Source: a virus. From it: a stretch of DNA of 39,982 bases. The position numbers and the translations under genes were made by a program. The DNA lies in the IMG/VR virus record IMGVR_UViG_3300042294_004070, positions 1 to 39,982 of that record. One strand, written 5' to 3'. The notes under the pieces were generated by a model. That model saw only the letters and a program-made list of their open reading frames with translations. It was not told where the DNA came from and made no database searches. This document shows, piece by piece, positions 125 through 24,004 of the stretch. Positions within the stretch are counted from its first letter, which is position 1. Every line of letters begins with the position of its first letter.

Positions 125-423
125 GTAGTGAAATTTTGAAACCATGCTTTAAAATCCTCTATTAATTCTTTTAGAGTTATATTTTTATAACTGTCAGGCC
201 CATCAAAATCTATAATATCATTTAAATAATTAATTAAAGCATCATTAAATACTTGGGGTGAATCAAATAAATCATTAAAATATTTATATTTTAATTCTTT
301 TTTTAATTTATCAATATCAACATAGTCAAAACCATCGTCACCATCATCTCCACGAGATACAATATCAACCGGTTTATTTAACGGTGCATTGCCTAAGCCA
401 GTATTAACAGGTTGTGCTTTCAT
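118..423 (-). CDS. Short acidic protein that starts on the KAQPVNTG module motif
   Basis: The 101-aa product is of unknown function. It begins MKAQPVNTG, so its start codon sits exactly where the recurrent E-I-K-x-x-P-x-N-T-G motif begins in neighbouring proteins. It therefore looks like a module already in its 'mature' form, without a leader or upstream module. KAQPVN is identical to the motif inside the 334-aa nucleotidyltransferase-like protein at 4153-5157. The body is acidic and predicted helical in its second half (KELIEDFKAWFQNF), with an Asp/Gly-rich stretch around residues 24-33. The in-frame codon series upstream of the ATG reaches a stop after four codons, so a longer leader form is not possible here. 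There is no Shine-Dalgarno sequence. No homologous family is recognised. Confidence 0.75.
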   Translation of the reverse strand: MKAQPVNTGLGNAPLNKPVDIVSRGDDGDDGFDYVDIDKLKKELKYKYFNDLFDSPQVFNDALINYLNDIIDFDGPDSYKNITLKELIEDFKAWFQNFTTD

Positions 424-1381: not shown

Positions 1382-2380
1382 TTACTTCTTTTTAGCTTTT
1401 GGCTCAGGTTTTTTAGTCAAGGCAGCTTGTAATGCTTTAACCATGTTTTCTAAAGCGTTTTGCTCTTCAGGAGAAAATTCATAGTTGCCTTCTTTAAACT
1501 TAGCCATAGCATTTTGGAAGTAACCGGTTTCGGTTTTAGGTCTTCCTTTAGCACCAGGTACTGATGGTTCTTTACTGTATTTAGCTGGTTCAGTTACGAA
1601 ATCACCTGAAACTACAACACCAGCATCTTTCAAAGCAGAAACGATAGGTGCAGCACTAGCTGTATCTGATGATTGGAATTCCTCGTCGGCAATATGGGCT
1701 AAAGTACCATAAAAATCAATTGCTTTTGCTGTAAGAGGATCAGTATTAGGGTTAATAGGTTGACCAATTTTATCTTTATATTTTTGGAAATACTTAATTA
1801 CACGATCGAAACGAGTACTTTTCTTAAAACGGTCAGGTAAGTTAGCCATTTTTTCTTCCCAATCATCAGCTAATTTAGAAGGTTTAGCAATACGAGCCAT
1901 TTCATCTAAAGCCATTTCATCAACCATTTCTTCTTTCATAGTTTGGATAGGCTTCATATTACCTACATCATAGGTTTTATCAGGTCTTTGAGAAGGTGCT
2001 GTGTTAAAGTTTTTAGAATTAGGTCCAATAGGATCACCAACAGTATTAATAGCTTGAGAATCAGGAGATAACTCATCCATAGCTCGTTTAAGGGCAGCTA
2101 TTACTGTAGATTTAGAAACATTTTTAAGTTCTGAAAAGTCTAATGCAACTTTAAAAGCGCCATCTAATTCCGTAGGTTGATTAATAAAAGATAATTTTGC
2201 TACTACGTTAGGAGCATTTCCAATAGCTTTATTTAAGTTAGTTTCATCAGGAGTATTTATAGTTCCTTTAGCCATCTCTCTAACCATTTCTTTTACTTTC
2301 TTTTTGGTTAGTTTATTATCAACTGACTCAGTTAATAAAGGGTTATTTCTTAAATACTTGTGTAAATCAAAGTTATCCAT
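1382..2380 (-). CDS. Lysine-tailed putative internal head protein with MDNFDLH leader
   Basis: The 332-aa protein opens MDNFDLHKYLRNNPLLTES, related to the MDNFDLK leaders and containing L16-T17-E18, a fit to the T4 prohead-protease rule (L/I)-x-E. It lacks the E-I-K-P-N-T-G motif. The body is mostly helical and charged, with a Met/Glu-rich stretch (EEMVDEMALDEMAR) near the middle, a basic KGRPK segment near residue 280 and a C-terminal tail ending PEPKAKKK. A basic tail plus a cleavable leader is what one expects of a DNA-contacting internal or core protein of the head, but this is inference. A copy of the AATATTTATAA element lies 12 bases before the ATG. No database family is recognised. 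Confidence 0.75.
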   Translation of the reverse strand: MDNFDLHKYLRNNPLLTESVDNKLTKKKVKEMVREMAKGTINTPDETNLNKAIGNAPNVVAKLSFINQPTELDGAFKVALDFSELKNVSKSTVIAALKRAMDELSPDSQAINTVGDPIGPNSKNFNTAPSQRPDKTYDVGNMKPIQTMKEEMVDEMALDEMARIAKPSKLADDWEEKMANLPDRFKKSTRFDRVIKYFQKYKDKIGQPINPNTDPLTAKAIDFYGTLAHIADEEFQSSDTASAAPIVSALKDAGVVVSGDFVTEPAKYSKEPSVPGAKGRPKTETGYFQNAMAKFKEGNYEFSPEEQNALENMVKALQAALTKKPEPKAKKK

Positions 2381-4152: not shown

Positions 4153-5157
4153 TTATGTAGTATAAATTACTATTTCTCCATTTTTATTAAAATAACCATC
4201 TTGTTTTTCTATCATAGTATAAAGAAATGAATGGCCATTAGAATCAGAAGTTAGTATAACACTAAATTCATCATTACTAATAATGGTAAACTTATCTTTT
4301 AATATTTTTTTAGCGGCAATATATTTAGGAATATTGTCTTGGATAGTTTCTATAGCCAACATAATTTCTTCTGCAAGAAAGTCTATGTCTTCAGGATTAT
4401 CAGATAACATTTCTGCTCTATCTCGAGCATAATCTTTTATATTTAAAGGATCATTTAATGTTAGAATATAATCAATTTCTTTTTTATCTTCATTAAAATA
4501 AAGCTTATAGTCTCCATTTAAAATATGATTAATATATTCGGCGTCGCGTATTGTGTTTTCATTCGCTTTAACATTAATAAAATTAAAAAATTGAATAGTA
4601 TCATAACTAATTTCACCATAATCTAAAATGTAGTCTTCTATAAAAGAAGTATCTATATCTATATATGGTTCATCAGTTATGGTTTTTTTTTTGGTAGGTT
4701 TAATTAATCTATTAACGGGTTGAGCTTTAATTTCACTAAAAATTTCTTTAATAATTTGTTTTAAATCTTTTTGTTTGTTCTTATATACAGGACTCCAAAT
4801 TTTATTTTCTTTAGCATGAACTATTTCATCTATAGGAGATAATTTTATAGTATGTCCTTGAATATTAGCGGTAACATATTTTGCTTTAGGATTGTGAAAA
4901 AAATCTAAACATGTTTTTATTTCGCGTATATGGTAAGTTTTTTTACTAGTCACCATACCCTTGTAAGGGAATTTTGTTTCATGTAAATCACCAAAAGAAA
5001 CGGGAGATATTATATCTAAATCTTTAACATCACGAGCAGGAATATGTTTTTGTAATATTAAAGCAAGACTTCCACCTAAGTAAAAATCGGGGTATTGTTT
5101 TTGTAAAGGAACAATATATTTAAGTAATACTTCTTTTATTTGTGATTTTTTAATCAT
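4153..5157 (-). CDS. Nucleotidyltransferase-like protein with internal EIKAQPVN motif
   Basis: The 334-aa protein has an N-terminal domain with the nucleotidyltransferase-fold signature G28-G29-S30-L-A-L followed by D46-L-D48, as in the MNT/AbiEii/CCA-type superfamily. A third acidic residue probably lies in the following strands (CLDFF). Such enzymes transfer NMP to proteins, RNA or antibiotics; the target here is unknown. At E142-I-K-A-Q-P-V-N the recurrent module motif separates this domain from a C-terminal acidic domain of about 190 aa that I do not recognise. The motif has lost its T-G (it continues R-L-I-K-P). Residues 7-9 (I-K-E) could also serve as an early protease site. It follows the 670-aa gene with a two-base gap. 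If packaged and cut at 142, it would deliver a free nucleotidyltransferase to the host. Confidence 0.75.
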   Translation of the reverse strand: MIKKSQIKEVLLKYIVPLQKQYPDFYLGGSLALILQKHIPARDVKDLDIISPVSFGDLHETKFPYKGMVTSKKTYHIREIKTCLDFFHNPKAKYVTANIQGHTIKLSPIDEIVHAKENKIWSPVYKNKQKDLKQIIKEIFSEIKAQPVNRLIKPTKKKTITDEPYIDIDTSFIEDYILDYGEISYDTIQFFNFINVKANENTIRDAEYINHILNGDYKLYFNEDKKEIDYILTLNDPLNIKDYARDRAEMLSDNPEDIDFLAEEIMLAIETIQDNIPKYIAAKKILKDKFTIISNDEFSVILTSDSNGHSFLYTMIEKQDGYFNKNGEIVIYTT

Positions 5158-5159
5158 TA

Positions 5160-7172
5160 TTATAAATCAGAGTATTTAATATATTTTCCTGTAGTTTTAT
5201 CAAAAGCGCCAAAAAGATTTCCATCATCATCCCAATCAGACCAAGTTACAGTTAATCCAGGTCCATCCTCCGATTTTACCACACTATCTCGTAGTTGGGG
5301 GTAATCATCTACTTGATCGTTACTACCGATATTAAGAGTATAAATTCTGCCTTTTAATTTTCTATAAATAGAATCAAAAAGTTCTAAGTCTTTAGAGGTC
5401 ATATATTCATTTTCTATATCATCTTCTATATTATCTCTATCAATAAAAGTATAGATTAAAGGTTCATCAGGGTTTCCTTCAGGTGTGTGTCCCGGATCAA
5501 AACCCATTAATTGTTTTTTAATCCATTCTTTTTCTTCTGGAGTAAGAGGAGGGGTGGTTCCTGTGTTTCCAGGTTGAACTTTAATTTCATCAACATTCCC
5601 ATCATTAGGTATTTTTAAAGCAGCTAAAATTTCATTAGCTGGTAGGTCTTTAATATGGTTAAATTTTAATTTAGTATAAGGGGAAACTAAATAAGTTTGT
5701 CCGGCCATCGGAGATCTTGTTTCTTTTCTAGCTATGATAATAGGAGTACCTTTATAGTTTCCTTCAATATAAAATGATTTGGCTTTATATTCAATTTCTA
5801 ATTTATTTATTTTTTCTATATCAGACAAATTATTAAATTCTTCATCAGATAATGATCCTCTATATACTAAACCAATAGATATTTTTGTAGGTGTTATATT
5901 TAGTTTGTTAAAAAAATATTCAGCATTCTTTTTAGTAGTAGGATTTAATTTTTCTTGGGCATAAACCCAAGGATATTTGCTACCTATTTCATTTCCACTA
6001 AGATTGTATTTTCCTAAAGTTATACCTAATTTTTTAATTTTACTACTTACTCCTGTGTTTTTAGGTTGAACTTTAATTTCAGTAAATACGTCTTTATCAT
6101 CTTCATCATTAGGGATATCTTTGTTAATTTTAGCATCATTAGCTTTTAAATTACGCTCAATATCCCTCATAGTATCCATTGCCCATTTTTCTTGAGTAGG
6201 TGTTAGTTTATTTTCAAGTGCATTTACAACAAAATTAACAAATTCAGTTTCATCATCTATTTTATACATTTCAGGAAAAAAAAGATCTCTTACTCTAGTA
6301 TCATTAATTTCACTTTTAATATATACTTTATTAATAGCATCAAACATAATTTTACCAAAACGTATATCATTGGGTTCATTAGATAATTTATCTACTTTAC
6401 TTACAATCTTTTTATTTTGTTCAGCATCGGCTCCAAATCCTTGTAAAGATAATATTTCATATAATCCTTTTACAATTTCGTGAACTAACATTGGAAAACA
6501 GATAGCTGTAGCATTAATTACAAGAGTTTCTGTTTCTTCATCATAGTAAGCTTCAGATTCACCTCCTTGTGATTTTTGACCTTGAGCTAATAGGGCTAGC
6601 ATCTGAGCAATAGCATTTTCATCATCATAAATACCAAATACAGATTTCATTAACTCATTGTAACGGTTAATCATATCATCACCTAGATCATCTAGATATT
6701 CTCTAAATAGTAGGAATGCAAAAGTGCCACGGATAGAGGCACCTTGAGTAATTCCGTTTATGATACGGCGTTTTTTCTCACCAGTTAAAGTAGGTTGAGG
6801 TAAATTAACATCAGGTTGTTCTTCCTCTTCTTCACCACCCGGAGCTCCTTTGGGAAGTTCACCTTTACCTATACTAGCATTGATTTTTATTTTTGAGTAC
6901 TTAATGATAGGATAAGCTTGGGTAACAATTTCTTTAGCTATTTCCTCAAGTAAATCAATATGAGGTTGTTCAGCTTCAATAAGTTCAGGAAGTAATGTAC
7001 TAGCTGTACTCATCATTTGTCTTAAATTTTTTCCTAGTTTTACTAATTCGTCTTTAGATTGTTTTTTTAATAAAGACATAGTTTCAGGAGAAAATATTTC
7101 CTCGTAATCTACCTCACTCAAACGTTGGATTTTTTCCTCAATTACTTGTTTAGCTAATTGTGTTAATTTCAT
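5160..7172 (-). CDS. Modular putative capsid polyprotein (three segments)
   Basis: The 670-aa protein consists of an N-terminal part (1-365) and two modules bordered by the recurrent motif: F-T-E365-I-K-V-Q-P-K-N-T-G and V-D-E529-I-K-V-Q-P-G-N-T-G. The N-terminal part is largely helical, with a poly-Glu stretch near residue 115 and a hydrophobic segment (INATAICFPMLVHEIVKG). The motif HEIVKG lacks the second His of a zincin, so I do not call it a protease. The last module (530-670: LTPEEKEWI ... SKDLELFDSI ... IKYSDL) is a clear homologue of residues 555-708 of the 833-aa protein at 17879-20380, with 49 bases of nearly identical DNA. The 366-529 module begins like other A-type modules (NTGVSSKIK). 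The gene overlaps the stop of the 665-aa gene by ATGA, so the two are translationally coupled. Confidence 0.8.
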   Translation of the reverse strand: MKLTQLAKQVIEEKIQRLSEVDYEEIFSPETMSLLKKQSKDELVKLGKNLRQMMSTASTLLPELIEAEQPHIDLLEEIAKEIVTQAYPIIKYSKIKINASIGKGELPKGAPGGEEEEEQPDVNLPQPTLTGEKKRRIINGITQGASIRGTFAFLLFREYLDDLGDDMINRYNELMKSVFGIYDDENAIAQMLALLAQGQKSQGGESEAYYDEETETLVINATAICFPMLVHEIVKGLYEILSLQGFGADAEQNKKIVSKVDKLSNEPNDIRFGKIMFDAINKVYIKSEINDTRVRDLFFPEMYKIDDETEFVNFVVNALENKLTPTQEKWAMDTMRDIERNLKANDAKINKDIPNDEDDKDVFTEIKVQPKNTGVSSKIKKLGITLGKYNLSGNEIGSKYPWVYAQEKLNPTTKKNAEYFFNKLNITPTKISIGLVYRGSLSDEEFNNLSDIEKINKLEIEYKAKSFYIEGNYKGTPIIIARKETRSPMAGQTYLVSPYTKLKFNHIKDLPANEILAALKIPNDGNVDEIKVQPGNTGTTPPLTPEEKEWIKKQLMGFDPGHTPEGNPDEPLIYTFIDRDNIEDDIENEYMTSKDLELFDSIYRKLKGRIYTLNIGSNDQVDDYPQLRDSVVKSEDGPGLTVTWSDWDDDGNLFGAFDKTTGKYIKYSDL
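5352..5400. repeat. Copy 1 of a 49-bp near-identical repeat inside the B module
   Basis: Identical to 18476-18524 except for one base (5366). It encodes the same part of the B module (around SKDLELFDSI.RKLK) in two different polyproteins, implying recent duplication or recombination. Confidence 0.85.
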
Positions 7173-9180: not shown

Positions 9181-9441
9181 TTAAGACTTATGTATTTTAA
9201 GTTTTAATATACCTGTCCCTTTAATTACACGATGCCATTCGTGTCTAGGAATATGTATAGGTTGATTTATAGAGGTAGGTAACTGGTTTTCTAATTGCAA
9301 TTTCCAGTCAGTAGCGCCGATAATTTCAATTATCCTATGTTCATCATCACGATGCCACAAAAGTTCAATTGGATCGATATTATCGCAAAATTCGCGTATA
9401 ATATATTCGTCTGTAACTTCTATGTCGGTATAGGGTCTCAT
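9181..9441 (-). CDS. Small cupin-like phage protein
   Basis: The 86-aa protein reads like the short beta-barrel proteins common in T4-like phages: W-H-R-D-x-E-H-R near residue 30, then W-K-L-Q-L-x-N-x-L-P, then I-P-R-H-E-W-H-R-V-I-K-G-T-G. The repeated His/Glu and the I-P-x-x-x-x-H-R strand are typical of cupin-type folds, where they may bind a metal. The role in the phage is unknown. It has no cargo leader, which sets it apart from its upstream neighbours, but it overlaps the stop of the Cys-containing 79-aa gene by ATGA and so belongs to the same operon. Assignment to cupins is by pattern only. Confidence 0.7.
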   Translation of the reverse strand: MRPYTDIEVTDEYIIREFCDNIDPIELLWHRDDEHRIIEIIGATDWKLQLENQLPTSINQPIHIPRHEWHRVIKGTGILKLKIHKS

Positions 9442-9677
9442 TTGCCTTTAGGTATAAACCAATTTGAACACCACTTTGAAGGGTCTTTAATTGGGTTACC
9501 TTCATTATCTACTAATTCTTTAGTACCCATATATACTTGATATTGTTTATTTGAGCACATATGTTTTTCGTCTTCAATGTAATGGTACTTACAAACATGA
9601 CAACCAAATCCTATTGGTGAGTACATGTATGGAGGGTATTCTTTATCCTCGTTTAATATGTCTGAAAATTTTATCAT
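9438..9677 (-). CDS. Small four-cysteine protein with ILNE leader
   Basis: The 79-aa protein opens MIKFSDILNE, the shared 10-residue leader with L8-N9-E10, followed by a body with C26-x-x-C29, C41 and C70-S-N-W. Four cysteines in this spacing could bind one zinc ion. The function is unknown. The start overlaps the stop of the preceding 201-aa gene as TAATG, the same junction type used in this run of leader-bearing genes, which behaves like an array of cassettes. If the leader is removed after E10, a 69-aa mature protein would remain. Confidence 0.75.
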   Translation of the reverse strand: MIKFSDILNEDKEYPPYMYSPIGFGCHVCKYHYIEDEKHMCSNKQYQVYMGTKELVDNEGNPIKDPSKWCSNWFIPKGK

Positions 9678-10282
9678 TATCGTTGTAAATTAAATCTTGA
9701 TACTCTAGCTTTAGCTTCTACCTCATCATAAAATGAAGGTTCTTCAGGATATGCAAATATTTTATTTGCCCCCGGTACTGGGATTTCACTGTTAGTTACG
9801 ATACCAGAAAGTTTATCTCCTTTTATAGGAGTATACCCTGTTATTCCTTTAGACATTTTATCCATAACCATGTTATAAATTCTTTGTCTTTTGGTAGAAT
9901 CTCCAGTAACTTGTTCTTCATGACCTTTAATTCCTTTCCAAAATACGTACTCTGGTTTGTATGTAGCAATATATTCTTTAAGAGCTTTACCTACAGTTGC
10001 TAAAATTTTTCCAAAATTCTCACCACCTTCTTCAGTTTTAGGAGTAGTTTTAAATGCTTTAGGAAAAAAAGTTAATTCAGTTCCCCAGTTATATTTTTGG
10101 TCTTGTTTTTTACTTCGGCCGTTCCATTTACTATCAAATCGAACATAATATTCTTTTCCAGTATCGGTTGTAAACTCATAATCAACATAATTATTAAAAT
10201 TACCTTCTTTATGATAACTAGGAGAATACAGTGAATATGGTGAATCAGCTATTTCGTTTAATATGTCAATCAATTTTATCAT
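9677..10282 (-). CDS. Putative cargo protein with MIKLIDILNE leader
   Basis: The 201-aa protein starts MIKLIDILNE, identical over ten residues to two neighbouring genes that are otherwise unrelated. The body has a beta-rich first half (VDYEFTTDTGKEYYVRFD), a central helix (ILATVGKALKEYIATYKPEYVFWKG) and a segment TKRQRIYNMVMDKM. That segment resembles a stretch in other phage hypothetical proteins in which a long-lived R-x-R-I-Y-x-x-M motif follows an aromatic strand. No function is known. It is tightly packed: TAATG overlaps at both ends. Confidence 0.75.
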   Translation of the reverse strand: MIKLIDILNEIADSPYSLYSPSYHKEGNFNNYVDYEFTTDTGKEYYVRFDSKWNGRSKKQDQKYNWGTELTFFPKAFKTTPKTEEGGENFGKILATVGKALKEYIATYKPEYVFWKGIKGHEEQVTGDSTKRQRIYNMVMDKMSKGITGYTPIKGDKLSGIVTNSEIPVPGANKIFAYPEEPSFYDEVEAKARVSRFNLQR

Positions 10283-10923
10283 TATGAAAGTTTAAATATA
10301 ATTTCATTTACCAATTCTTCTGTTGTTTTTCTTTTCTTATTTAAATCAAATAAACCTATATTTTTTTTACCCTCATAATATTGTCTAATACTACTAATAG
10401 ATTGTTGTATATCATCATCCTTTATTCCTGCTTCTAACCCAGATTGTCCCATCTTATCTGCTCTATCTTGTCTACTTTTTTTCAAAAATTCAATATATGG
10501 TTTATCATCATTAGGAGATGGTGGAACACCTAAAACAAAAATGTTAGATAAATCCTTAAGTAAATCGGGATTTTTTATACTATCCCCACCAATGTCTAAA
10601 ACAACTTTTTTATTGCCATATTTTTGTAATAGTTTAGAAAGGACACATCTTTTATAAGCATCATTTGATGAGCCGTAGTTATGTCCATCTTTAGTTCTTA
10701 CAATATTTACCTCAACACCTTTTTCACCTTTACATGCATTTTCATACTCTTCACTACCTTCTCTTTCATCTACATTAACATATGGTATCCCTAATTTCTT
10801 TGCTAGTGCTTCGGCAGTTGTTGATTTCCCGGCACCTGCAGAGCCAACAAAAACAATTGGTTTACTTTCATACTGTTTAGCTTCAATTAAGCTTTCGTTT
10901 AATATGTCAATTAATTTTATCAT
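10282..10923 (-). CDS. P-loop kinase-like protein with MIKLIDILNE leader
   Basis: The 213-aa protein is a small nucleoside/shikimate-kinase-like P-loop enzyme carrying the cargo leader. After the leader (1-10) and a short linker comes PIVFVGSAGAGKST with Walker A at G27-S-A-G-A-G32-K33-S34-T35. Then a helix (AEALAKKLGIPYVNVDE) follows, and a Walker B-like strand (KKVVLDIGG). A lid-type basic stretch (KKSRQDRADK) lies in the second half. The substrate is unknown. The linker itself offers a second candidate site (S-L-I-E14). The fusion of an enzyme to a short leader also found on unrelated proteins is the best single hint that leaders are targeting signals rather than part of the folds. Confidence 0.8.
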   Translation of the reverse strand: MIKLIDILNESLIEAKQYESKPIVFVGSAGAGKSTTAEALAKKLGIPYVNVDEREGSEEYENACKGEKGVEVNIVRTKDGHNYGSSNDAYKRCVLSKLLQKYGNKKVVLDIGGDSIKNPDLLKDLSNIFVLGVPPSPNDDKPYIEFLKKSRQDRADKMGQSGLEAGIKDDDIQQSISSIRQYYEGKKNIGLFDLNKKRKTTEELVNEIIFKLS

Positions 10924-11531
10924 TGGTCGCGGTACATTTCATCATACATAATATCAAATAATTTTAAGTTTCCTTGTTTATCTAAACCTATGTTTTTACG
11001 GTGTATATCTAAATCATATGATTTTAATTTAGGTAAAGTTTTATATAGTTTATCAAGAAAATTGTATATTTTAGTTAATAATAGTATTAAATCTGTTTTT
11101 TTAAGTTGTTTTGCTTCTTTTAAAATACGATTATAAACATCGCTTTTATCTTTTTTTAATTCTATGTCTATCCCCGATACTATATCTTGGGAATAAACAT
11201 TCATTAGAGAATTACCTCCTCTAACCCATTCTATGCCCGCTTCATTTTTTGTAAAATCTTGTAATTCTTTTAATCCGGGTACAGGTGTTTGAACTTTTTC
11301 CATAATAACATACTTAGGACTATAATCATATATCTTAACAAAAAATTCAGGGTATTTACTCATCAACTCATATTGATCTTTTTTAGTTTTTGGGTTGGTA
11401 ATAGTATATTTTTTTATAACTTTATCAGGAGCAAATTTAAGATCGTATGTTTCTCCTTCTGCAGATTCTTCATCTCCTAATTTAGTTTTTTTCTGGATGT
11501 TTATTTCAAGTATGTCTAGAAATTTTATCAT
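10920..11531 (-). CDS. Protein-kinase-like protein with MIKFLDILE leader
   Basis: I place the start at the ATG at 11529-11531, not at the longer in-frame ATG at 11549. It gives the leader MIKFLDILE, aligned with its neighbours, and the same ATGA overlap with the preceding gene. The 203-aa product has the signature of a protein-kinase or aminoglycoside-kinase fold: a VIKKY strand for the ATP-anchoring Lys, a hinge-like strand YVIMEKV, a catalytic loop D-L-D-I-H-R-K-N-I-G-L-D and a metal-binding strand L-K-L-F-D-I, the DFG equivalent. The HRD aspartate is replaced by the D-x-H-x-x-N arrangement of APH/ABC1-type kinases. It is small for a kinase, so activity is uncertain. A packaged kinase could modify host proteins at infection, as T7 gp0.7 and T4 Alt do by other chemistry. 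Confidence 0.75.
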   Translation of the reverse strand: MIKFLDILEINIQKKTKLGDEESAEGETYDLKFAPDKVIKKYTITNPKTKKDQYELMSKYPEFFVKIYDYSPKYVIMEKVQTPVPGLKELQDFTKNEAGIEWVRGGNSLMNVYSQDIVSGIDIELKKDKSDVYNRILKEAKQLKKTDLILLLTKIYNFLDKLYKTLPKLKSYDLDIHRKNIGLDKQGNLKLFDIMYDEMYRDQ

Positions 11532-12142
11532 TTTGATTTTTTCCCCCATGTTTTACCTTTACCTGGTGCTTTACATTGTGCGGCTGTTGCTTTACAGGCA
11601 GGATATTTAGCTCGTTCTTCACCTTTCTTTCTACCACATGCTTTGTATCCACCTTTACCATCAGGGGCATTGCAATCTATCCAACCACCTTCTTTACCTT
11701 TAGGACCTTGACGTTTAAACCAAGTACGGAGAGTTTCTTTTTGTGCCTCGTTTAAATCTTCTTCTTTTAAATCTTTCCAAATATCACCCTGACGACATCT
11801 TTCGGCAGCACCGGATTTATAGGCACCATGTTCTTTGTATTTGCGATCGGCAATACGAAGACATCTATCTCGTTTTTTCTTTGCCTCTAATAATGATTCT
11901 CGTACTCCACTAAACCACCTTACAAGTACATCTAGTTGTCGTTGAGTAGTTTGATAATTATTTCTTTTAATAGTATTTAATACATCATCAATATACTTAT
12001 CTTTTCTATTTATATCAGCCCATCTTCTCCACTTATTCCAAGCCGCTTCTCCGGTTAAATTAACCCCCCCACTTTTAAAAGGTAAGGGAAATTTAGGAGC
12101 AGGAAGTGTAACCTCATTTAATATATCTATAAGTTTTATCAT
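11528..12142 (-). CDS. Putative cargo protein with basic Cys-containing C-terminal domain
   Basis: The 204-aa protein starts MIKLIDILNE. Its C-terminal 60 residues (GGWIDCNAPDGKGGYKACG, then KYPACKATAAQC and a basic tail TWGKKSK) are a small Cys/Lys-rich domain that I know from other large phage genomes and that looks nucleic-acid binding; its function is not established. A site D-L-N-E immediately before the domain linker, and L-L-E further up, would fit further cleavage by a T4-type protease. A second Cys-containing basic stretch (RDRCLRIADRKYKEHG) lies mid-protein. Genes on both sides overlap it by one to four bases. Confidence 0.75.
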   Translation of the reverse strand: MIKLIDILNEVTLPAPKFPLPFKSGGVNLTGEAAWNKWRRWADINRKDKYIDDVLNTIKRNNYQTTQRQLDVLVRWFSGVRESLLEAKKKRDRCLRIADRKYKEHGAYKSGAAERCRQGDIWKDLKEEDLNEAQKETLRTWFKRQGPKGKEGGWIDCNAPDGKGGYKACGRKKGEERAKYPACKATAAQCKAPGKGKTWGKKSK

Positions 12143-15328: not shown

Positions 15329-16915
15329 TTATATTCCTGTATTTTCAGGTTTAACTTTAATTTCTGATATTTTATCTGAGTGTGGATTTTTGATTAGATA
15401 ATTACCATTTTCATCTTGAGTAATACTTAAATTAAGGGGTAACATTTGTCTAGTACCTTTTTTAGTATTTATATCAACTAATTTAGAATTTTCTAATCCT
15501 TTTTTAAAGGCCATTACAACTTGTTGAGGCATTTTAGTATCAATTAATTTATTCAAATCAGAATATCCTATAGTAGTATTGTCTGTTTTTCTACCTCTTT
15601 TTATTTTATCTAAAGCAGTTTTAACTAGTGGATCAATATACATTTTACCACCATAATATTTAATATTCTCACCAAAAGTATCTTTTATACTTTTAAGGAA
15701 AGTAAATGTTTTAGGGACGTAGTTTTTACCTTTTTTTTTTTCTTCCTCTCCCAACATAGCATCTAGTGAAGGTTCTTTTTCTTCAAAATCTAGATAATGT
15801 TTAGCTTTTACTAAATAATCTTTAGTCAAATGAATTTTTTCTTGCCACCAATCAGGAAAGTCAATTTCAACATTCATCTTGTCATATTTGTCAAGCATTT
15901 TGTATAATTCAATAGCATACTTAGCTATACGATATACATTTGCTTTTAACATATGAGGCTCATCATCCTCGTGACCTAAGTCGATATCTTCATTTTTAGC
16001 TTTAACTCCACGACCTATTAAAACATCAGCGTATGTAGTTTCACCATCATCATTTAAGTCAGGAAAACCTTCTTTCATTGCTTGAGAGGTAGCAATAGGT
16101 CCTGCTTTTTTAGAAGGCATACCACTATCAATTAACGCATCATATATTTCACCACGTTTTTTCTTTTGAGCGGGAGTCATTTTTTTCTCAGAAACAACTT
16201 TACTTATTAATTCCTTTAATAAGTTTTCTTTAGTAATGTCTTTGGGAGTTTTTTTAGTAGTCATTTTATAATTAGTTATTCCAACGTTATTTAATACAGT
16301 AGATACTATTTTTTCTATATTTATTTTAGTTAAAGTATTTTTAGATAAAGAAAACATCAATGAGTTTTCATCTACTTTTTCAAAATCAAGTATAGAACGG
16401 CTAGGTTTAGTTTCAAAATACTTTTTAATTAATTGTACTTGATTATCTGTAGTATTTTTAGTCCATTCAAAATTAGGATCATTTAATTCCTCTCTGCGTT
16501 TATTAAGTAATGCTTTACGTTGGCCTGGATTGCCTGGAGGTTCTAGTAATCCTTTAATATATTTATCTAATTTAGGGTCTTGTGACCTAAATTGTTTTAG
16601 ATAAGATCCATAGTTATTAGGGTCCTGGAGACTTTCAATTGCTTTATTTAAATCTTCTTTGGATTTAAAAATAATTAAAGGATTTTGATCAAATAATTGG
16701 CGTTGCATTGATTGATCATCTTCACTTTCTTTTATGTCTAATTCACTAATATATTTATTAACTTCTCTTTGTATATCCGCAGGTAATTCCCCATAATTGT
16801 ATACAGCATACATTTTATTAAATCTTAGTTCATCCATCATAGATTCTTTTCTAGGTAAGGTTAAACTATCGTAAACATTTTTTACTTTAGGTTTATATAT
16901 AGGCATGTAATACAT
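15329..16915 (-). CDS. Putative structural/cargo polyprotein with EF-hand loop, ending on EIKVKPENTG
   Basis: The 528-aa protein contains a helical region K-K-M-T-P-A-Q-K-K-K-R-G ... S-Q-A-M-K-E-G followed by a perfect EF-hand/dockerin-type loop, D286-L-N288-D-D290-G-E-T-T-Y-A-D297. The next about 75 residues (HEDDEPHMLKANVYRIAKYA ... DWWQEKIHLTKDYL) form an all-helical domain of a type found in phage capsid-associated and prohead polyproteins. The last eleven residues are E518-I-K-V-K-P-E-N-T-G-I, preceded by I-S: a perfect (I)-x-E site immediately before the stop. The protein thus ends on the module motif, as if a following module had been lost. Two ATGs are possible (16915, 16906); the first is used here. 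Confidence 0.8.
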   Translation of the reverse strand: MYYMPIYKPKVKNVYDSLTLPRKESMMDELRFNKMYAVYNYGELPADIQREVNKYISELDIKESEDDQSMQRQLFDQNPLIIFKSKEDLNKAIESLQDPNNYGSYLKQFRSQDPKLDKYIKGLLEPPGNPGQRKALLNKRREELNDPNFEWTKNTTDNQVQLIKKYFETKPSRSILDFEKVDENSLMFSLSKNTLTKINIEKIVSTVLNNVGITNYKMTTKKTPKDITKENLLKELISKVVSEKKMTPAQKKKRGEIYDALIDSGMPSKKAGPIATSQAMKEGFPDLNDDGETTYADVLIGRGVKAKNEDIDLGHEDDEPHMLKANVYRIAKYAIELYKMLDKYDKMNVEIDFPDWWQEKIHLTKDYLVKAKHYLDFEEKEPSLDAMLGEEEKKKGKNYVPKTFTFLKSIKDTFGENIKYYGGKMYIDPLVKTALDKIKRGRKTDNTTIGYSDLNKLIDTKMPQQVVMAFKKGLENSKLVDINTKKGTRQMLPLNLSITQDENGNYLIKNPHSDKISEIKVKPENTGI

Positions 16916-17878: not shown

Positions 17879-20380
17879 CTAGCTTATAGGGTTAACTTCT
17901 ATATTAAAATTTTTTTCTATATTTATATCCTCAATATATGGATGATTCATCTTAAAAGGAATACCTAAATCTTTTAATCTTTGTACCCATATATCATATC
18001 GTTCAGGATAATTTGAATTAGCCTCTAAATCCATTGATATTTCACCTTCATTATTTGTAAATATTTCAGTAAACATTAATGGGAAATTTTTAAGTTTTAT
18101 TATTCCTGGTAGGAAATTCTTAGGTGAAAGTTTCAAAAAATCATAGATATCAGAATATGATTTGATTTTAAGGTCATTAGGGAAAAATTCAAGATTTATT
18201 TTTCCTTTTATCCCCGTTTTTTTAGGTTGAACTTTGATTTCATCAACTTTACCAATTTTATCCAGATCAGAATATTGAAGATATTCTCCTGTATCTTTAT
18301 CAAATGCACCGTATTCTGAGCCATAGCTACCATCTAGTCTATCAGACATAGTAATAGTTAATTCTGGGTTATTATTGCTATATTCAGCTCTTACTACTGC
18401 ATCTCGAAGATCATAATCTTCAGGGTATTTTTTTATGTTAGGATCGTGCCCACGATTAAAGGTATAAATTTTATTTTTTAATTTTCTATGAATAGAATCA
18501 AAAAGTTCTAAGTCTTTAGAGGTCCTGTATTCGCCTTGTATCTCATCTTCTATCTCTTTTCTATTGACAAATTTGTATTCTAATGGAGCATCAGAATCTA
18601 AATCTGTGTTATTAGATGAGTAAAAGCGATCAATAGTATATGCTTGATTATCAATCCATTCTTTTTCTTCAGAGGTTAGAGCACCAGCCACTCCTGTGTT
18701 TTTAGGTTGGACTTTAATTTCATTAGTAGATTGCTCAATATTTAAAGTTATATACTTATTAACATCTATATCTGTAATTCCAAAATTACGTCCCTGAGTT
18801 AGAATTTTATCTATATATGGAATATTAAGATTATCTAGTTTATTTTTCCAAGCCTCAAGATACTCATATGGTGTGTCTGTATTAGTAAGTATGATGGTTA
18901 GTATAACTATAGATGAATCATCTCTATGTAATATACCTTGCATTTTAGGTAAATCTTTAGAACTTATCCACCCACCAAAGTGTCTTTCATTAACATCATT
19001 TATTGATTTTATATCTTTAGGGTAAAAAAAATAAGAAGGATCTAATTTAAAATTTACTTTTAATTTGCTACCTACTCCTGTATTTTTAGGTTGGAGTTTA
19101 ATTTCATCAAGTTGGTCTTGAGAATTTTCCCAGCAACGAAGTAATATGTTTCCTAACTGGTACGCTTCTTCCTCTAATCCTTTTAAATTGTCATCTTGAT
19201 TTACATTTTGTGTACCAATATTACCTAATCTTCCTTGCATATTTTGCATATGATGAATCATCTCATGAGCAAACGAACGGAGTATGTCCTTAGGGTGTCT
19301 ATCGGTTATATACAAAGTAATCGCGCAATTTTGTGGATCATAATATGCTGTTTTACCCAATACTTTAGAGGCATTAGCCTCATCGTCAACAAATTTTACT
19401 TTAGGTAAAGGACGAATTTCAATATCACTATCCATAAACTGAGTGAGTGATTTGATAAAAGGTATTAATTCATTTTGGGGTGTGTTATGGAGTGCTTTAC
19501 AACGAACTGCCTCATTTAATTGATTTTCTTTTAAATAAAAACGAGTTTCATTCGGTGTTTCCTCCATTTTAACATGAGGTATATTTTTCTTAAAAAATGC
19601 TTTATATAATTCATTTCGTTGATTAATACCTCTTAATCTAACTGCTTCACTACCTTTAGTTTTAGTTTCAGCTGGAGTGTAAAGTAAAATATCTAAATTA
19701 TTTTTAACTATATCTTTAGCTAATTCTTTCTTGATAATTGAAAATATAGTAGCCATTATTTTATATGGCTCATTTACATTAGTCATTTCATATGACTCAT
19801 TAGCGGTAAAATCTACTTTAACAATGTTTTTATCTAATTCATTATCATAATCATATTCAAAAATAACATCATAAAAAATATCCCCAGCCGAAAAATCATA
19901 TACTATAGTACCAAATAATTCATCTCCATCTAATTCTAAATCATCCAAACGTTTAACATAATTATAAGGGGTAGATGATAATTCTCCTACTTCATTTACA
20001 TCATTATTAAATTCTTTAACTAATTCAATAGCAAAAGCAGATAACCCGTAAGGGTCTTTTCTCATTTTAATACCACCCGGAGTTTTAAATTCTTTACCTG
20101 TTTTAACATCAGCATTATAACCACAAGTACCTTCATCAATTTTAGATAACTTATCGTAATATTTAGGATCTTCAAACAGATGATCCATAGCTATTTCTTT
20201 AGCGGCTGATTTATTAGTAGTATGTTCGGCTTCAACTTTAATACCTTTTTCAAGTTGTTTCTCTAATTTATCTTTTTCAACTCCATGCTTAGCGGCAATA
20301 TCATCTAAAGTTTTATTTTTAGCTAATCCGCCGGGTACTTTATTAAGTTCATTAAGTAAATTTTCTAGGGATAATTCCAT
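17879..20380 (-). CDS. Modular putative capsid polyprotein with zinc-metallopeptidase motif
   Basis: The 833-aa protein has five parts. Residues 1-11 (MELSLENLLNE) fit the cargo leader with L9-N-E11. Residues about 36-85 (KVEAEHTTNKSAAKEIAMDH ... DPKYYDKL) match a small helical domain widespread in phages (DUF5661-like). Residues about 300-425 contain a zincin motif H372-E373-M-I-H376 with a candidate third ligand in the Glu cluster 403-405, so this part may be an active zinc peptidase. Then three modules begin at motif copies L-D-E426, T-N-E554 and V-D-E714, each followed by I-K-x-Q-P-K-(N/K)-T-G. Modules 427-554 and 715-833 are homologous to each other; module 555-714 is homologous to the C-terminus of the 670-aa protein. 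No similar named protein is known to me. It carries an exact pre-start element two bases upstream. Confidence 0.8.
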   Translation of the reverse strand: MELSLENLLNELNKVPGGLAKNKTLDDIAAKHGVEKDKLEKQLEKGIKVEAEHTTNKSAAKEIAMDHLFEDPKYYDKLSKIDEGTCGYNADVKTGKEFKTPGGIKMRKDPYGLSAFAIELVKEFNNDVNEVGELSSTPYNYVKRLDDLELDGDELFGTIVYDFSAGDIFYDVIFEYDYDNELDKNIVKVDFTANESYEMTNVNEPYKIMATIFSIIKKELAKDIVKNNLDILLYTPAETKTKGSEAVRLRGINQRNELYKAFFKKNIPHVKMEETPNETRFYLKENQLNEAVRCKALHNTPQNELIPFIKSLTQFMDSDIEIRPLPKVKFVDDEANASKVLGKTAYYDPQNCAITLYITDRHPKDILRSFAHEMIHHMQNMQGRLGNIGTQNVNQDDNLKGLEEEAYQLGNILLRCWENSQDQLDEIKLQPKNTGVGSKLKVNFKLDPSYFFYPKDIKSINDVNERHFGGWISSKDLPKMQGILHRDDSSIVILTIILTNTDTPYEYLEAWKNKLDNLNIPYIDKILTQGRNFGITDIDVNKYITLNIEQSTNEIKVQPKNTGVAGALTSEEKEWIDNQAYTIDRFYSSNNTDLDSDAPLEYKFVNRKEIEDEIQGEYRTSKDLELFDSIHRKLKNKIYTFNRGHDPNIKKYPEDYDLRDAVVRAEYSNNNPELTITMSDRLDGSYGSEYGAFDKDTGEYLQYSDLDKIGKVDEIKVQPKKTGIKGKINLEFFPNDLKIKSYSDIYDFLKLSPKNFLPGIIKLKNFPLMFTEIFTNNEGEISMDLEANSNYPERYDIWVQRLKDLGIPFKMNHPYIEDINIEKNFNIEVNPIS
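18476..18524. repeat. Copy 2 of the 49-bp near-identical repeat
   Basis: Matches 5352-5400 with one mismatch (18490). It lies within the B-type module of the 833-aa protein. Confidence 0.85.
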
Positions 20381-20393: not shown

Positions 20394-21186
20394 ATACATC
20401 TAACTTAATAGATGTAGGGAATAATTCTGAGTATGGTTTTAAATCTGGATTTTTGAATTTAAATATTTCAAATAAGTTTTTAAATGCTTGGATGTTGTTT
20501 TCAAAGGTGTTGTTCATTTCTTTAAGTTGCCATCCCTCACCTTGAATTTTCTTACCTGATTTGTCAGCACCACGGGTAGCTGCTTTTAACCATAAGATAC
20601 CAGCGTTCTCAATCTTTTGATCGAATGATTCATTCCACATTTGTTTATAACAAGCAAGTTGCAAATCATAAGTATCATGTAATGAATTTGAGGTTTTAAT
20701 ATCTAGCAACCACAATTTGTCATTTAATTCTACTACCAAATCGATTGTACCTGCTACTTGTAATTCATCTGAAAGTAAGTGCCATTCAGAGGCAATCAAT
20801 GTTGGTTTATGTGTTTTCCAAAAGTCAGCAAATTTAAGAATCATTTTCCATACCTCAAGAGAATATTTAGCTTTACCATTATCATCTAACCATTGAATTT
20901 CTTCTCCAGCTAAGAAGTTCTCAACAGCATTGTGTACTTGAGTACCTTCATCTCCTGCTCTACGCATGATGATATCGGAGTTATGTCCTACATCTTTAAT
21001 CCAACTTTCAAAAAATTTATCTTTAGGGAAAGAGGACAGCACATATGTTACTGAAGGGTAAAAAACGCCTTCTTTGCGTTGGTAATAACGAGTATCTAAA
21101 ATGGTAATTTGCTTAGCATCATCAGTAAATTCAACGATGCGATTAAGTTTTTTGTCTTTTTTTACATTTTGATTTTGTTCTATCAT
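20392..21186 (-). CDS. PD-(D/E)XK nuclease (RecB/Cas4-like exonuclease)
   Basis: The 264-aa protein is a RecB-family nuclease. The core runs G-T-I-D149-L-V ... L-L-D162-I-K164-T-S, with the trailing helix carrying Q (LQLACYKQMW) as in RecB/Cas4 nucleases. An upstream helix contains the conserved G-T-x-V-H-x-A-V-E (residues about 81-89), motif I of the PDDEXK_1 group. Such enzymes digest DNA ends or single strands with Mg2+. The protein is complete at the usual size. It overlaps the primase stop by ATGA, so the pair is co-translated and probably acts in DNA replication or recombination. Confidence 0.88.
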   Translation of the reverse strand: MIEQNQNVKKDKKLNRIVEFTDDAKQITILDTRYYQRKEGVFYPSVTYVLSSFPKDKFFESWIKDVGHNSDIIMRRAGDEGTQVHNAVENFLAGEEIQWLDDNGKAKYSLEVWKMILKFADFWKTHKPTLIASEWHLLSDELQVAGTIDLVVELNDKLWLLDIKTSNSLHDTYDLQLACYKQMWNESFDQKIENAGILWLKAATRGADKSGKKIQGEGWQLKEMNNTFENNIQAFKNLFEIFKFKNPDLKPYSELFPTSIKLDV

Positions 21187-22100
21187 AACATTATTTTTTT
21201 CTTAAGTAATAAATCGTAAGTTAAAGCTGGGGTTTGTTGTATAATATTTGTAAATTCTAAAAATCCTAGTTCATTTGGGTCTTTATCAGCCATTTCAACT
21301 AAATAAACTTTTTTACCATAATCCATTAATGTTTTACAATGCTCTAAAGCAGACTTAATAGCATCTTTATCCAAAGCAATATATACTTTCTCTACAGATG
21401 AAGTTACTATCTTTTTCATTAATGTTTTAGAGATAATCTTACCAAATAAAGGTATAGCATTTCGTTTAATTGATATAGCATCGAATGCTCCCTCACACAA
21501 CACAATAGGTGACTTCCAGTTTACAAAAAATTCAAACCCAATTATATCTTTAGATACTGGAGGATTTAGTTTATTTGAGGATATAAATGAGCGAGAAACA
21601 AAATAATTTAAATTACCTAATTCATCGTAGCTAGGTATAATAACCATATTAGCATATCGTCCTTCCTCACAATAACCAACATTATATCTTAATATATCGG
21701 CTTTGGTTAATCCTCTATCTTTTAAGTACTTTAAAGCATGTTTACCAACAACATCTTTAGATGATACATCAGAAATAGGTTTAAATTCTTTAGGTAACTT
21801 TATAGTGTTACTTTGTATAACTGTTTCGGTATTATTAGATTTCACCAAGCTACCTAATTCAGCTATTTTATCAGATGATGCTCCTACTTGTTTAAATAAG
21901 GTAGATAATTTTTTACCTTTTTTATCACATACCCAGCAATGCCATGGGTTTTCACCTTTATTATTACCACTAAAATTAATTTCTAATTTTAGCTTATGGT
22001 GATTACAAAAGGGACATTTATATGCTTTATTATTTCGAGCAGTTTTATTACCACTACCTAGAACCGAGTCTACAAGCGATATTAAAAGTTGATCTATCAC
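21183..22100 (-). CDS. DNA primase with zinc finger and TOPRIM domain (T4 gp61-like role)
   Basis: The protein has an N-terminal zinc-binding domain (C29-P-F-C32 ... H-C55-W-V-C58 counting from the GTG at 22100). A TOPRIM domain follows, with P-I-V-L-C-E-G-A-F-D-A (catalytic Glu), Y-I-A-L-D-K-D-A (Asp pair) and K-D-P-N-E. It makes RNA primers for replication, with a replicative helicase as partner. No helicase domain is attached, as in T4 gp61. Start choice: the frame extends to a TTG at 22115, but that codon lies inside the T run of the terminator. The GTG at 22100 begins V-I-D-Q-L-L, a usual primase N-terminus. Nothing resembling the pre-start element lies between terminator and start. Confidence 0.85.
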   Translation of the reverse strand: MIDQLLISLVDSVLGSGNKTARNNKAYKCPFCNHHKLKLEINFSGNNKGENPWHCWVCDKKGKKLSTLFKQVGASSDKIAELGSLVKSNNTETVIQSNTIKLPKEFKPISDVSSKDVVGKHALKYLKDRGLTKADILRYNVGYCEEGRYANMVIIPSYDELGNLNYFVSRSFISSNKLNPPVSKDIIGFEFFVNWKSPIVLCEGAFDAISIKRNAIPLFGKIISKTLMKKIVTSSVEKVYIALDKDAIKSALEHCKTLMDYGKKVYLVEMADKDPNELGFLEFTNIIQQTPALTYDLLLKKKIML

Positions 22101-22112
22101 TTGGTGAATATA

Positions 22113-22142
22113 CAAAAAAAGGCTTGGTTTCCCAAGCCTTAG
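22113..22142 (-). terminator. Strong intrinsic terminator between leader-protein genes and primase
   Basis: On the minus strand AAGGCTTGG - GAAA - CCAAGCCTT forms a 9-bp GC-containing stem with a GAAA tetraloop, followed by a run of T. It lies 18 bases after the stop of the 94-aa gene. The T run reaches the first possible start codon of the primase frame. Confidence 0.88.
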
Positions 22143-22159: not shown

Positions 22160-22444
22160 TTAGTTAATATAATAATCACTTAAAATTCCTGATTTGGAAT
22201 AACTAGCAATAACATTTTTTAAGCTGTTATAATCATCTAAAGTATCAATTTGCATGTATTCTTTAGAGTCATCCCCATCTTCATCTATTTCTATGAAAAC
22301 CATTTTACCTTTTGCCTCTTCAAATGTAAAGTCTAATGCATTTTTTATCCCGGTATTTCCAGGGACGGCTTTAATTTCTTTTAAACGAGAATTTTCAGTT
22401 AATTTATTTTCTACTAAAAAATGTTTTAAGTCAAAATTATCCAT
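22160..22444 (-). CDS. Small leader protein, MDNFDLK family
   Basis: The 94-aa product is leader plus a short acidic module. Residues 1-19 are the MDNFDLKHFLVENKLTENS leader, which holds L10-V-E12 and L15-T-E17. L21-K-E23-I-K-A-V-P-G-N-T-G follows, a perfect (L)-x-E site at 23. The module after it is only about 62 aa (FIEIDEDGDDSKEYMQID). The function is unknown. It is the last of three tandem genes with the same leader and is followed by the strong terminator. A one-base-longer variant of the pre-start element (AATATTTAATAA) lies two bases upstream. Confidence 0.78.
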   Translation of the reverse strand: MDNFDLKHFLVENKLTENSRLKEIKAVPGNTGIKNALDFTFEEAKGKMVFIEIDEDGDDSKEYMQIDTLDDYNSLKNVIASYSKSGILSDYYIN

Positions 22445-22449
22445 AGTTA

Positions 22450-23208
22450 TTAAATATTATAATTAATATACATTATTTTTTTTCCTGCTACTGTTATTTC
22501 CTCTGGTTCATCACCATTTTCACCTCTAAAATTATCATCTACATCCTCAGGATAGCTAAATGATACTCCATACATATATTCTCCTCCACCTTCTACTTCA
22601 TCCTCCTCATCCTCAAGATCAATATTAACCCGTGCTATTGCTGATGGATTATTTAAAGTATCCATCTCAATATCTTCTAAACGGACTGCCCCCATCTTCT
22701 TAGCGATTTCATATTGGTTTTGTTTAATAAAAGATAATAAATCTATTTTCATTCCTGTATTTTTAGGGACGGCTTTAATTTCTTCTAAAGTATCAGGACT
22801 AACAATTTTATATCCATCTTTTAAAAGACTATTTAAATGAAATTGGGTTTCTAGTGTTTTATAGGGAAAAGAAACAGGGTCTGTATTATAGGGTTTACCT
22901 GTAGTTGTTGATCTTAAATCTACAAACCAATCATCAAATCCTTCTTCCTCAGACCCTTCATGGTCAAATTCCATGTCTTTTATAACATATGAGTCTTGTA
23001 TTGTAATATTATAATCTGTAGGTGAAGGCATATAATTACCTTTAAATTTTTGTTTGTCCCACATTTTAGGAGTAATGATATCACCAACTTTTAGGTCTAC
23101 GAATCTTGTAGTTCCTGTATTTCCAGGGGTGGTTTTAATTTCACCTAAACGAGAATTTTCAGTTAATTTGTTTTTTACTAAAAATTGCTTTAGGTCAAAA
23201 TTGTCCAT
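22450..23208 (-). CDS. Two-module leader protein, MDNFDLK family
   Basis: The 252-aa protein carries the same leader and two motif copies: L-G-E23-I-K-T-T-P-G-N-T-G and L-E-E143-I-K-A-V-P-K-N-T-G, both perfect (L)-x-E sites. Module 1 (24-143) starts TTRFVDL like the body of the next gene (TTRFITL). Module 2 (144-252) is homologous to the second half of the 306-aa protein at 457-1377. Module 2 is very acidic (DLEDEEDEVEGGGEY). No enzymatic motif is visible. An exact AATATTTATAA element precedes the start by two bases. Confidence 0.78.
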   Translation of the reverse strand: MDNFDLKQFLVKNKLTENSRLGEIKTTPGNTGTTRFVDLKVGDIITPKMWDKQKFKGNYMPSPTDYNITIQDSYVIKDMEFDHEGSEEEGFDDWFVDLRSTTTGKPYNTDPVSFPYKTLETQFHLNSLLKDGYKIVSPDTLEEIKAVPKNTGMKIDLLSFIKQNQYEIAKKMGAVRLEDIEMDTLNNPSAIARVNIDLEDEEDEVEGGGEYMYGVSFSYPEDVDDNFRGENGDEPEEITVAGKKIMYINYNI

Positions 23209-23210
23209 AA

Positions 23211-23221
23211 TTATAAATATT
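23211..23221 (-). promoter_or_regulatory. AATATTTATAA pre-start element
   Basis: Exact 11-mer two bases before the ATG at 23208, overlapping the TAA stop of the 110-aa gene. Confidence 0.55.
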
Positions 23222-23552
23222 ATTCCATTCCATAATCTCTAAGACCATCAAATGTTCTAGAAAATTCCTTTAAATAATCTGAAATAAATCTTAATTCTCT
23301 AAATTCATTATCAGGTATAGTATTTAATTTTACCAATTCATTTTCAGTTGATGATCCATCTTCCATTTTTTTAACTATTTGTTGAAGTTGTTCTAATTGG
23401 TTTAAAATATTAATTGAAAGAGAATGCATTTGTTCTAAAGTTATAAATCTTGTAGTTCCTGTATTTCCAGGGATGGCTTTAATTTCTTTTAAATGAGAAT
23501 TAGAAGTTATTTTATTCTCTACTAAAAAATGTTTCAAGTCAAAATTGTCCAT
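23220..23552 (-). CDS. Small leader protein, MDNFDLK family, helical body
   Basis: The 110-aa protein has the leader MDNFDLKHFLVENKITSNS and the motif L-K-E23-I-K-A-I-P-G-N-T-G-T-T-R-F. The body is a helical, partly coiled-coil segment (INILNQLEQLQQIVKKMED). It shares only the leader, motif and the first residues TTRF with the next gene, so the leader and bodies have separate histories. The function is unknown. An exact pre-start element lies two bases upstream. Confidence 0.78.
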   Translation of the reverse strand: MDNFDLKHFLVENKITSNSHLKEIKAIPGNTGTTRFITLEQMHSLSINILNQLEQLQQIVKKMEDGSSTENELVKLNTIPDNEFRELRFISDYLKEFSRTFDGLRDYGME

Positions 23553-23554
23553 AA

Positions 23555-23565
23555 TTATAAATATT
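23555..23565 (-). promoter_or_regulatory. AATATTTATAA pre-start element
   Basis: Exact 11-mer two bases before the ATG at 23552, overlapping the TAA stop of the GIY-YIG-like gene. Confidence 0.55.
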
Positions 23566-24004
23566 ATTCAAAGTCTTTGGTGAAAAACTTTCCAAGAATA
23601 TTGTCATTAAAGTATTCTAAAGGATGTTCTAACACCCCATATTTAAATAAGTACTTACATTCATAGTAAGTAAGAAGTTTTTTACTAGAAACAAACTGTA
23701 TGATCTCACGGGTAAAGTCCTCTTGTTTACCTTCTTTAATGAATTCTACAATTGGTTTTGCAGATCCGTAATACGTTTTCCAATCAGATTCCTTTTGAAC
23801 TACCTCGGTTGTAGGTTTACGTCCTCTTCCGGTATGTTCAGCCAGTTCTTTTTTGGTTAATTTACGTTTAACGTTGTGATATAGCGATTTTTTTCCAATA
23901 TACGATATCCCACTTGAATTGTGAGTAGTTATGTATATAAAACCGAATGTTCCTTGAGGCATATCCTCAATTGAGCTAATAACTTGTTCATTGTATAACC
24001 ACAT
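23564..24004 (-). CDS. GIY-YIG-like endonuclease
   Basis: The 146-aa protein shows the GIY-YIG core in the variant form G21-F-I-Y24 ... Y35-I-G37-K-K, then a basic segment, then W-K-T-Y-Y-G-S-A and a helix with F-T-R-E-I-I, and a Glu-containing helix Y-Y-E-C-K-Y. This arrangement is found in small phage endonucleases, several of which are free-standing homing-type enzymes. The cut site is unknown. It begins directly after the stop of the last tail gene (one-base gap) and sits at the border between tail genes and leader-protein genes, a usual place for a free-standing nuclease. No second half or DNA-binding repeat is present. Confidence 0.75.
   Translation of the reverse strand: MWLYNEQVISSIEDMPQGTFGFIYITTHNSSGISYIGKKSLYHNVKRKLTKKELAEHTGRGRKPTTEVVQKESDWKTYYGSAKPIVEFIKEGKQEDFTREIIQFVSSKKLLTYYECKYLFKYGVLEHPLEYFNDNILGKFFTKDFE

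Follow-up and report, generated by a model that had tools for sequence, protein, structure and literature searches.

Leader genes and their surroundings

The window (the whole stretch of DNA that was analysed, 39,982 bases; virus record IMGVR_UViG_3300042294_004070) belongs to a T4-like phage. Judged by the 619-aa baseplate protein, Flavobacterium phage immuto is its nearest named relative (46.7% identity). Three tandem genes with similar N-terminal peptides (hereafter, the trio and the leader) come after the baseplate and tail genes and lie between a SegE-like gene and the DNA primase gene. In each of them, the leader is followed by a short repeat (hereafter, the joint) and by one or two payload bodies:

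21183..22115, minus strand: DNA primase (phrog_47, 6.3e-38), conserved downstream border of the putative cargo site
22113..22139, minus strand: terminator-like element (hairpin and T run) following the 94-aa gene, as seen by direct reading of the sequence
22160..22444, minus strand: 94-aa leader gene (leader, joint, 62-aa acidic payload, hereafter body94); payload in 4 contigs only
22349..22378, minus strand: joint of the 94-aa gene, EIKAVPGNTG
22376..22444, minus strand: leader of the 94-aa gene, residues 1–23, ends L-K-E; also has L-V-E (10–12) and L-T-E (15–17)
22450..23208, minus strand: 252-aa leader gene (leader, joint, dom1, second joint, dom2)
22753..22782, minus strand: inner joint of the 252-aa gene, EIKAVPKNTG, with L-E before the joint; exchange point with contig G018
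23113..23142, minus strand: leader joint of the 252-aa gene, EIKTTPGNTG
23140..23208, minus strand: leader of the 252-aa gene, residues 1–23, ends L-G-E
23220..23552, minus strand: 110-aa leader gene (leader, joint, 78-aa payload)
23457..23486, minus strand: joint of the 110-aa gene, EIKAIPGNTG
23484..23552, minus strand: leader of the 110-aa gene, residues 1–23, ends L-K-E
23564..24004, minus strand: SegE-type GIY-YIG protein, 146 aa (Pfam PF19835, 2.7e-25), conserved upstream border of the putative cargo site

The PHROG name and the immuto annotation present the 146-aa gene as an NAD synthetase, an assignment that we rejected given its Pfam match (SegE_GIY-YIG). A second group of related genes lies at the other end of the window:

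118..423, minus strand: 101-aa leaderless ORF that begins inside a joint (MKAQPVNTG); 99–100-aa homologues in contigs G010 and G018
457..1377, minus strand: 306-aa leader gene, with a leader joint (1282–1311) and an inner joint (862–891)
1382..2380, minus strand: 332-aa gene with a divergent leader, MDNFDLHKYLRNNPLLTES

The trio, its fourth member of 306 aa and the 332-aa relative had been described by a sequence-only reading, and all were found where it placed them, with the four leader ORFs on the minus strand. The 19 leader residues that it regarded as common to the genes are similar rather than identical: residues 1–32 of the 252-, 110- and 306-aa genes are 72–88% identical to the 94-aa copy. 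Searching the window for the leader recovered four copies (E-values of 5e-21 to 4e-13), and a repeat search found one 124-nt family, also with four copies; therefore, the likeness of the leaders is not due to chance. At the position where the trio leaders end in L-x-E, the 306-aa leader has L-N-D and lacks the E, with the upstream L-T-E intact. The 332-aa gene matches the leader family exactly in its first six residues alone (MDNFDL), and has an L-T-E of its own (LLTES).

Two further features attributed to these genes turned out to be more widespread. The motif that follows the leader (residues 23–32, EIKxxPxNTG) is present in all four leader genes, but it is not leader-specific and recurs in other proteins of the window. 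Likewise, the pre-start DNA said to be the same in the trio is so for the 252- and 110-aa genes only, and we rejected it as a cassette-specific feature because the element is found phage-wide. TATTTATAA stands just 5' of many gene starts (e.g., 23209–23224 and 23553–23568); the 30-nt windows preceding gene starts account for 3.2% of the sequence and contain 10 of the 11 coding-strand copies of this element, and 11 of 43 genes have TATTTATA in the 40 nt before them. TATTTATAA is possibly a late promoter or start element.

Conservation of the leader peptide

A scan of viral sequences for the leader resulted in 129 confirmed stretches, from which 78 loci were kept. From these loci, immuto and the window, 104 distinct leader ORFs were extracted using a regular expression, and 103 were retained after one chance hit was dropped. 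A site of the form [LIVM]xE ends at residues 20–27 in 94 of the 103 leader ORFs (absent there from nine) compared to 11.6% of 1,914 body windows, and the strict form (L/I-x-E) does so in 85 of 103 compared to 7.5%; the scan did not require this site, because its patterns lie within residues 1–15, whereas the 32-residue confirmation may slightly favour it.

Over 50 cluster representatives, residues 1–19 are conserved and variation begins at about the site. Codon identity at identical leader residues was 0.596 compared to 0.542 expected (five of 55 representatives, whose leaders did not align gap-free, were left out). Since this value is near expectation, selection on the peptide rather than recent copying maintains the leader, and its conservation across 50 body clusters is, judged by codon usage, at the protein level.

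Some ORFs carry two leaders. The second is in frame in five cases (L041, L052, L076, L080 and L087), and separate genes are found in other contigs. LKE, IKE or LNE stands just before the second leader in all five fused ORFs (three distinct sequences), whereas the unfused pair of L045 has INK. In this small sample, an L/IxE ahead of the second leader fits cleavage between modules.

In the phage collection the leader was found in the four immuto records only, and the bacterial and archaeal genome scan returned one weak locus alone (L117, a MAG contig). The cultured Flavobacterium phage immuto has four leader genes (103806–104354, 117631–118632, 118632–118931 and 1803–2318), two of them immediately upstream of the terminase and portal genes.

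Payload diversity, insertion and exchange

After removal of five nested second leaders and two fragments shorter than 60 aa, the 96 leader proteins fell into 55 body clusters, including 36 singletons. Each of the four window payloads is found in 3–4 viral contigs only, all of the same phage group. Among the relatives of the window, G010 (70 kbp) and G017 (32 kbp) are near-identical to it, and G018 (29 kbp) is a close relative whose common genes are mostly 94–99% identical.

To compare the trio locus, we used the best 80 of 265 loci from a primase scan. A SegE-like gene lies upstream of the primase in 79 of these 80; the exception is G018, which starts inside the site. Between the two genes, 71 of the 79 loci are empty (no same-strand ORF of at least 50 aa), three contain the trio and five contain other genes. 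These other genes number six: two are GIY-YIG nuclease-like by eye, and four have L/IxE-type N-termini of other leader classes. Given that most of the compared sites are empty, the trio is most simply an insertion.

The second leader locus also varies. G010 has leader genes of 353 and 119 aa there, and the former has no counterpart between the 306- and 101-aa genes of the window, which stops short of the position of the latter. Most proteins common to the window and G010 are 98–100% identical, and the adjacent 101/99-aa pair is 80% identical.

The most detailed change was found in G018. In the window, the gene order is leader-dom1-joint-dom2 (252 aa) and leader-joint-body94 (94 aa), whereas G018 has leader-dom1-joint-body94 (217 aa) and leader-joint-dom2 (132 aa). 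Past the joint, the 217-aa gene matches body94 with 98.6% identity over 216 nt, compared to 43% for dom2; ahead of the joint, its identity is 90% over 60 nt with the 252-aa gene and 47% with the 94-aa leader. Over 330 nt, dom2 and the 132-aa gene of G018 have 97.6% identity. Based on these identities, the 252- and 94-aa genes appear to have traded payloads exactly at the joint, presumably by recombination. In addition, a 722-aa protein of G018 consists of a homologue of the 670-aa window protein joined at the joint to the C-terminal part of a 334-aa homologue, and the G018 homologue of the 528-aa protein continues for about 100 residues beyond the joint where the window protein ends; the exchange, the fusion and the longer tail all come from this single metagenomic contig, in which chimeric assembly at repeats is possible. 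Comparing the locus among relatives, as the sequence-only reading had proposed, thus revealed payload turnover, both in the largely empty site and in the G018 exchange, and the payloads are not conserved and syntenic in all relatives.

The joint as a repeat shared by several proteins

The joint is a repeat of about 30 nt coding for E-IKxxPxNTG. The 252- and 306-aa proteins have their inner copies of the motif. Besides the leader genes, the 670-, 833- and 334-aa proteins contain it, the 528-aa protein has it C-terminally and the 101-aa ORF has it at its start:

4153..5157, minus strand: 334-aa protein, joint EIKAQPVN (4705–4734); C-terminal part fused to the 670-aa homologue in G018
5160..7172, minus strand: 670-aa protein, joints at 6051–6080 and 5559–5588, the second being the fusion point in G018
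15329..16915, minus strand: 528-aa protein, ends one residue past a joint (15335–15364)
17879..20380, minus strand: 833-aa protein with leader MELSLENLLNE, DUF5661 and an HEMIHH motif; joints at 19076–19105, 18692–18721 and 18212–18241

Codon identity among the joints was 0.80 compared to 0.51 expected. The joints are therefore more similar in their codons than the encoded protein accounts for, a pattern expected from recent DNA exchange. Judged by its residues, the joint may also encode a cut site.

Prohead protease and other leader types

A T4-type prohead protease (PF03420) was found in 10 of 20 leader-bearing records, which were chosen, mostly as the longest, among those behind the 78 loci. 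The ten include all five records of at least 150 kbp and the near-identical G010; the ten records lacking it are all at most 118 kbp, and are possibly fragments.

We also searched for N-terminal L/IxE without using the trio leader. In immuto, it ends at residues 8–14 in 13 of 20 proteins of the block from the SegE-like gene to the terminase (1.4 expected, reached in 0/300 controls), and in 14 of 33 proteins of the G010 block (3.0 expected, 0/1000 controls); we had already seen the immuto genes when setting the block borders, and used the same landmarks for G010. Among the early proteins of immuto, 15 of 132 have the motif at these residues, compared to 15.6 expected. When similar leaders were collapsed and composition was shuffled, immuto retained 10/17 compared to 2.1 expected (0/2000 shuffles), and G010 only 7/23 compared to 2.5 expected (14/2000 shuffles reach 7). 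Leader-block and head genes show this enrichment; early and tail genes do not. As a control, IPI, IPII and IPIII of T4 have L/IxE at residues 19, 10 and 10, and of 19 further T4 proteins examined from that stretch, 2 show it at residues 8–14.

Other leader types occur in the window and its relatives:

9438..12142, minus strand: five genes with a second leader type, MIK(L/F)xDILNE; the 209-aa one (10920–11549) has MGEKIKMIKFLDILE and no L-N-E

Relatives of the DUF5661 region of the 833-aa protein (L156, L159, L163, L164, L168, L190 and others, from other phages) start with CTS-like sequences, for example MKSFNQFINED or MNELSNYLVETFLLTEA. Within the 665-aa protein (window 7169–9166), VKKFQKLAGIQTENE at residues ~595–610 resembles the N-terminal RMQKLAGIITE of immuto, L262 and L268.

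Nature of the payloads

Searches of Pfam, PHROG and PADLOC returned no family accounting for the trio payloads, which match no catalytic domain. Among the 55 cluster members searched, there was no match to an anti-defence family and no convincing one to a defence family in Pfam, PHROGs or PADLOC, and none to a family described as IPI, IPII or IPIII in Pfam or PHROGs. The PADLOC matches comprised seven families with one member each (best E-value of 2.3e-4, a type II restriction enzyme) and were not taken as evidence. After residue 23, the trio proteins have a pI of 4.2–5.0, compared to 9.0–9.7 in the T4 internal proteins; bodies in 13 of the 55 clusters are above pI 7.

One clear payload was identified outside the window: a sigma-70-type factor carrying the leader (L077, 6001–6600; 1.9e-14), which is, based on this match, a candidate injected transcription factor. 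A 507-aa gene of G018 (L097 11380–12903; compare 11528–12142 in the window) has the leader MIKLIDILNE and an insertion of about 300 residues. This insertion contains an ART-PolyVal-like stretch (E-value of 1.6e-5, below the Pfam cut-off).

An AF2 model of the 252-aa protein had a mean pLDDT of 58, with values <50 at residues 1–34 and 142–153 and moderate confidence in dom2 only, and had no match in the PDB with an E-value of at most 0.001. We set the model aside except for showing a low-confidence leader and inner joint.

Proposed function of the leader and joint

The leader, its cleavage-type motif, the protease gene, the diversity of payloads, and the insertion and exchange points, all of which can be read from the sequences, suggest that the leader is probably a capsid-targeting propeptide of a T4-like Bacteroidota phage. 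The predicted steps are core binding, packaging, cleavage and ejection: the leader would bind the scaffold core while the prohead grows, and any protein behind it would thereby be packed in the head; the prohead protease would cut after L/I-x-E at about residue 23, freeing the payload; and the payload would exit with the DNA at infection. As an accessory cargo cassette, the trio would have been inserted between the genes for the SegE-like protein and the primase. Payloads would be gained, lost and exchanged through recombination at the ~30-nt joint, and the joint would also link two payloads behind one leader.

A different destination seems improbable to us. The leader could sort proteins to another virion part or to the assembly membrane (tail lumen, baseplate or head-tail joint), with L/I-x-E having another reason; this would suit a trio that follows baseplate and tail genes, and the AF2 leader, a single short low-confidence helix, shows no binding partner. 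However, N-terminal L/IxE is enriched in the leader block and head genes and not in tail blocks, and two immuto leader genes stand directly upstream of the terminase and portal. Far less credible still is ordinary gene duplication followed by divergence, with the leader as a non-functional remnant: some bodies are related, since the 306-aa homologue of G010 and the 252-aa protein are 29% alike over residues 1–193, but this explanation is contradicted by the identity step at the joint (98.6% to 43% between two candidate partners) and by protein-level constraint on the leader across 50 body clusters. As for what a capsid-targeted payload would do, the sequence-only reading proposed anti-defence proteins, which we consider rather doubtful. 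This role is favoured by payloads that are small, rare in the viral collection and of high turnover, and by the precedent of T4 IPI (given in passages of PMC9026906); moreover, acidic payloads could be DNA mimics. Set against these points, the payloads match no anti-defence family and none convincingly in defence, and the leader-bearing protein found elsewhere is a sigma factor, which makes host takeover at least as likely.

For the joint, one reading that could well hold, though we stop short of calling it probable, is a mere flexible linker and gene-conversion tract that stays uncut, so that two-payload proteins remain fused. Four of the five joints in the 670- and 833-aa proteins have F, V or T, not L/I, three before the cut position, and recent DNA exchange, as indicated by the joint codons, suffices to account for their conservation. 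Nevertheless, E precedes IK in every window joint carrying that position except the 306-aa leader joint (D), all four leader joints have L two before that E/D residue, and the fused two-leader ORFs keep L/IxE before the second leader where the unfused pair does not. More tentatively, one short DNA repeat might perform two jobs, as a prohead-protease cut site and as a homologous joint for swapping, losing and stringing together capsid cargo modules. If so, new injected polyproteins would be built by recombination alone, with each module freed by cleavage inside the head.

If the capsid-targeting reading is right, the leader would serve as a sequence tag for listing injected phage proteins directly from genomic and metagenomic data, in a phage group that is large and little studied. 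A single scan would have provided 55 candidate effector clusters, nearly all without known function, and the joint would allow cargo exchanges among close relatives to be read from the sequence. Because the cultured phage immuto carries four leader genes, packaging and cleavage are directly testable.

Comparison with known systems

Among the matches listed in a search of the capsid-targeting literature, no title named a Bacteroidota phage capsid leader, and a search for literature joining capsid targeting sequence (CTS) with metagenomes found none. Phage polyvalent proteins, as described in passages of Iyer et al. 2017 (PMC5512222), are likewise multidomain and thought to be injected, and the 507-aa gene of G018 includes a stretch like their ART-PolyVal domain; unlike them, the payloads here are small, stand behind one leader, and have a fixed sequence joint as the module border. 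Polyvalent proteins unite several disparate catalytic domains in a single chain; of the window proteins, the 833-aa one has DUF5661 and the HEMIHH motif, and the trio payloads have no catalytic-domain match. The giant phage SPN3US (passages of PMC5694885) also has several cleaved inner-head ejection proteins, including two diverged paralogues with identical N-termini, whereas its propeptides are mostly >100 residues long and use another cleavage motif.

The closest likeness is with the internal proteins of T4 (IPI, IPII and IPIII) and their CTS, in line with the suggestion of the sequence-only reading that the locus resembles a T-even address label with exchangeable payloads. According to passages of PMC9026906, 10–19-residue propeptides target these proteins to the core, and gp21 cleaves after L/I-X-E. 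Both systems have a short N-terminal peptide on unrelated proteins (here, 55 body clusters), L/I-x-E at the end of that peptide in most leader ORFs, a gp21-type protease in the same phage (here, in half of the 20 records), and polymorphic payloads; the site, the protease, leader conservation, the number of clusters and their turnover thus agree with the comparison as far as sequences can indicate. The differences are that the leader here is about 23 residues long instead of 10–19 (the inner L-V-E at residue 12 would fit) and not recognisably related in sequence, that the trio is acidic where T4 internal proteins are basic, that the payload set is much larger and more modular, with internal joints, and that the locus lies between the baseplate region and the primase. 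The locus thus departs from the T4 proteins in two features, length and basic charge, and we do not claim homology; the best reading is that the leader would work like the T4 CTS system.
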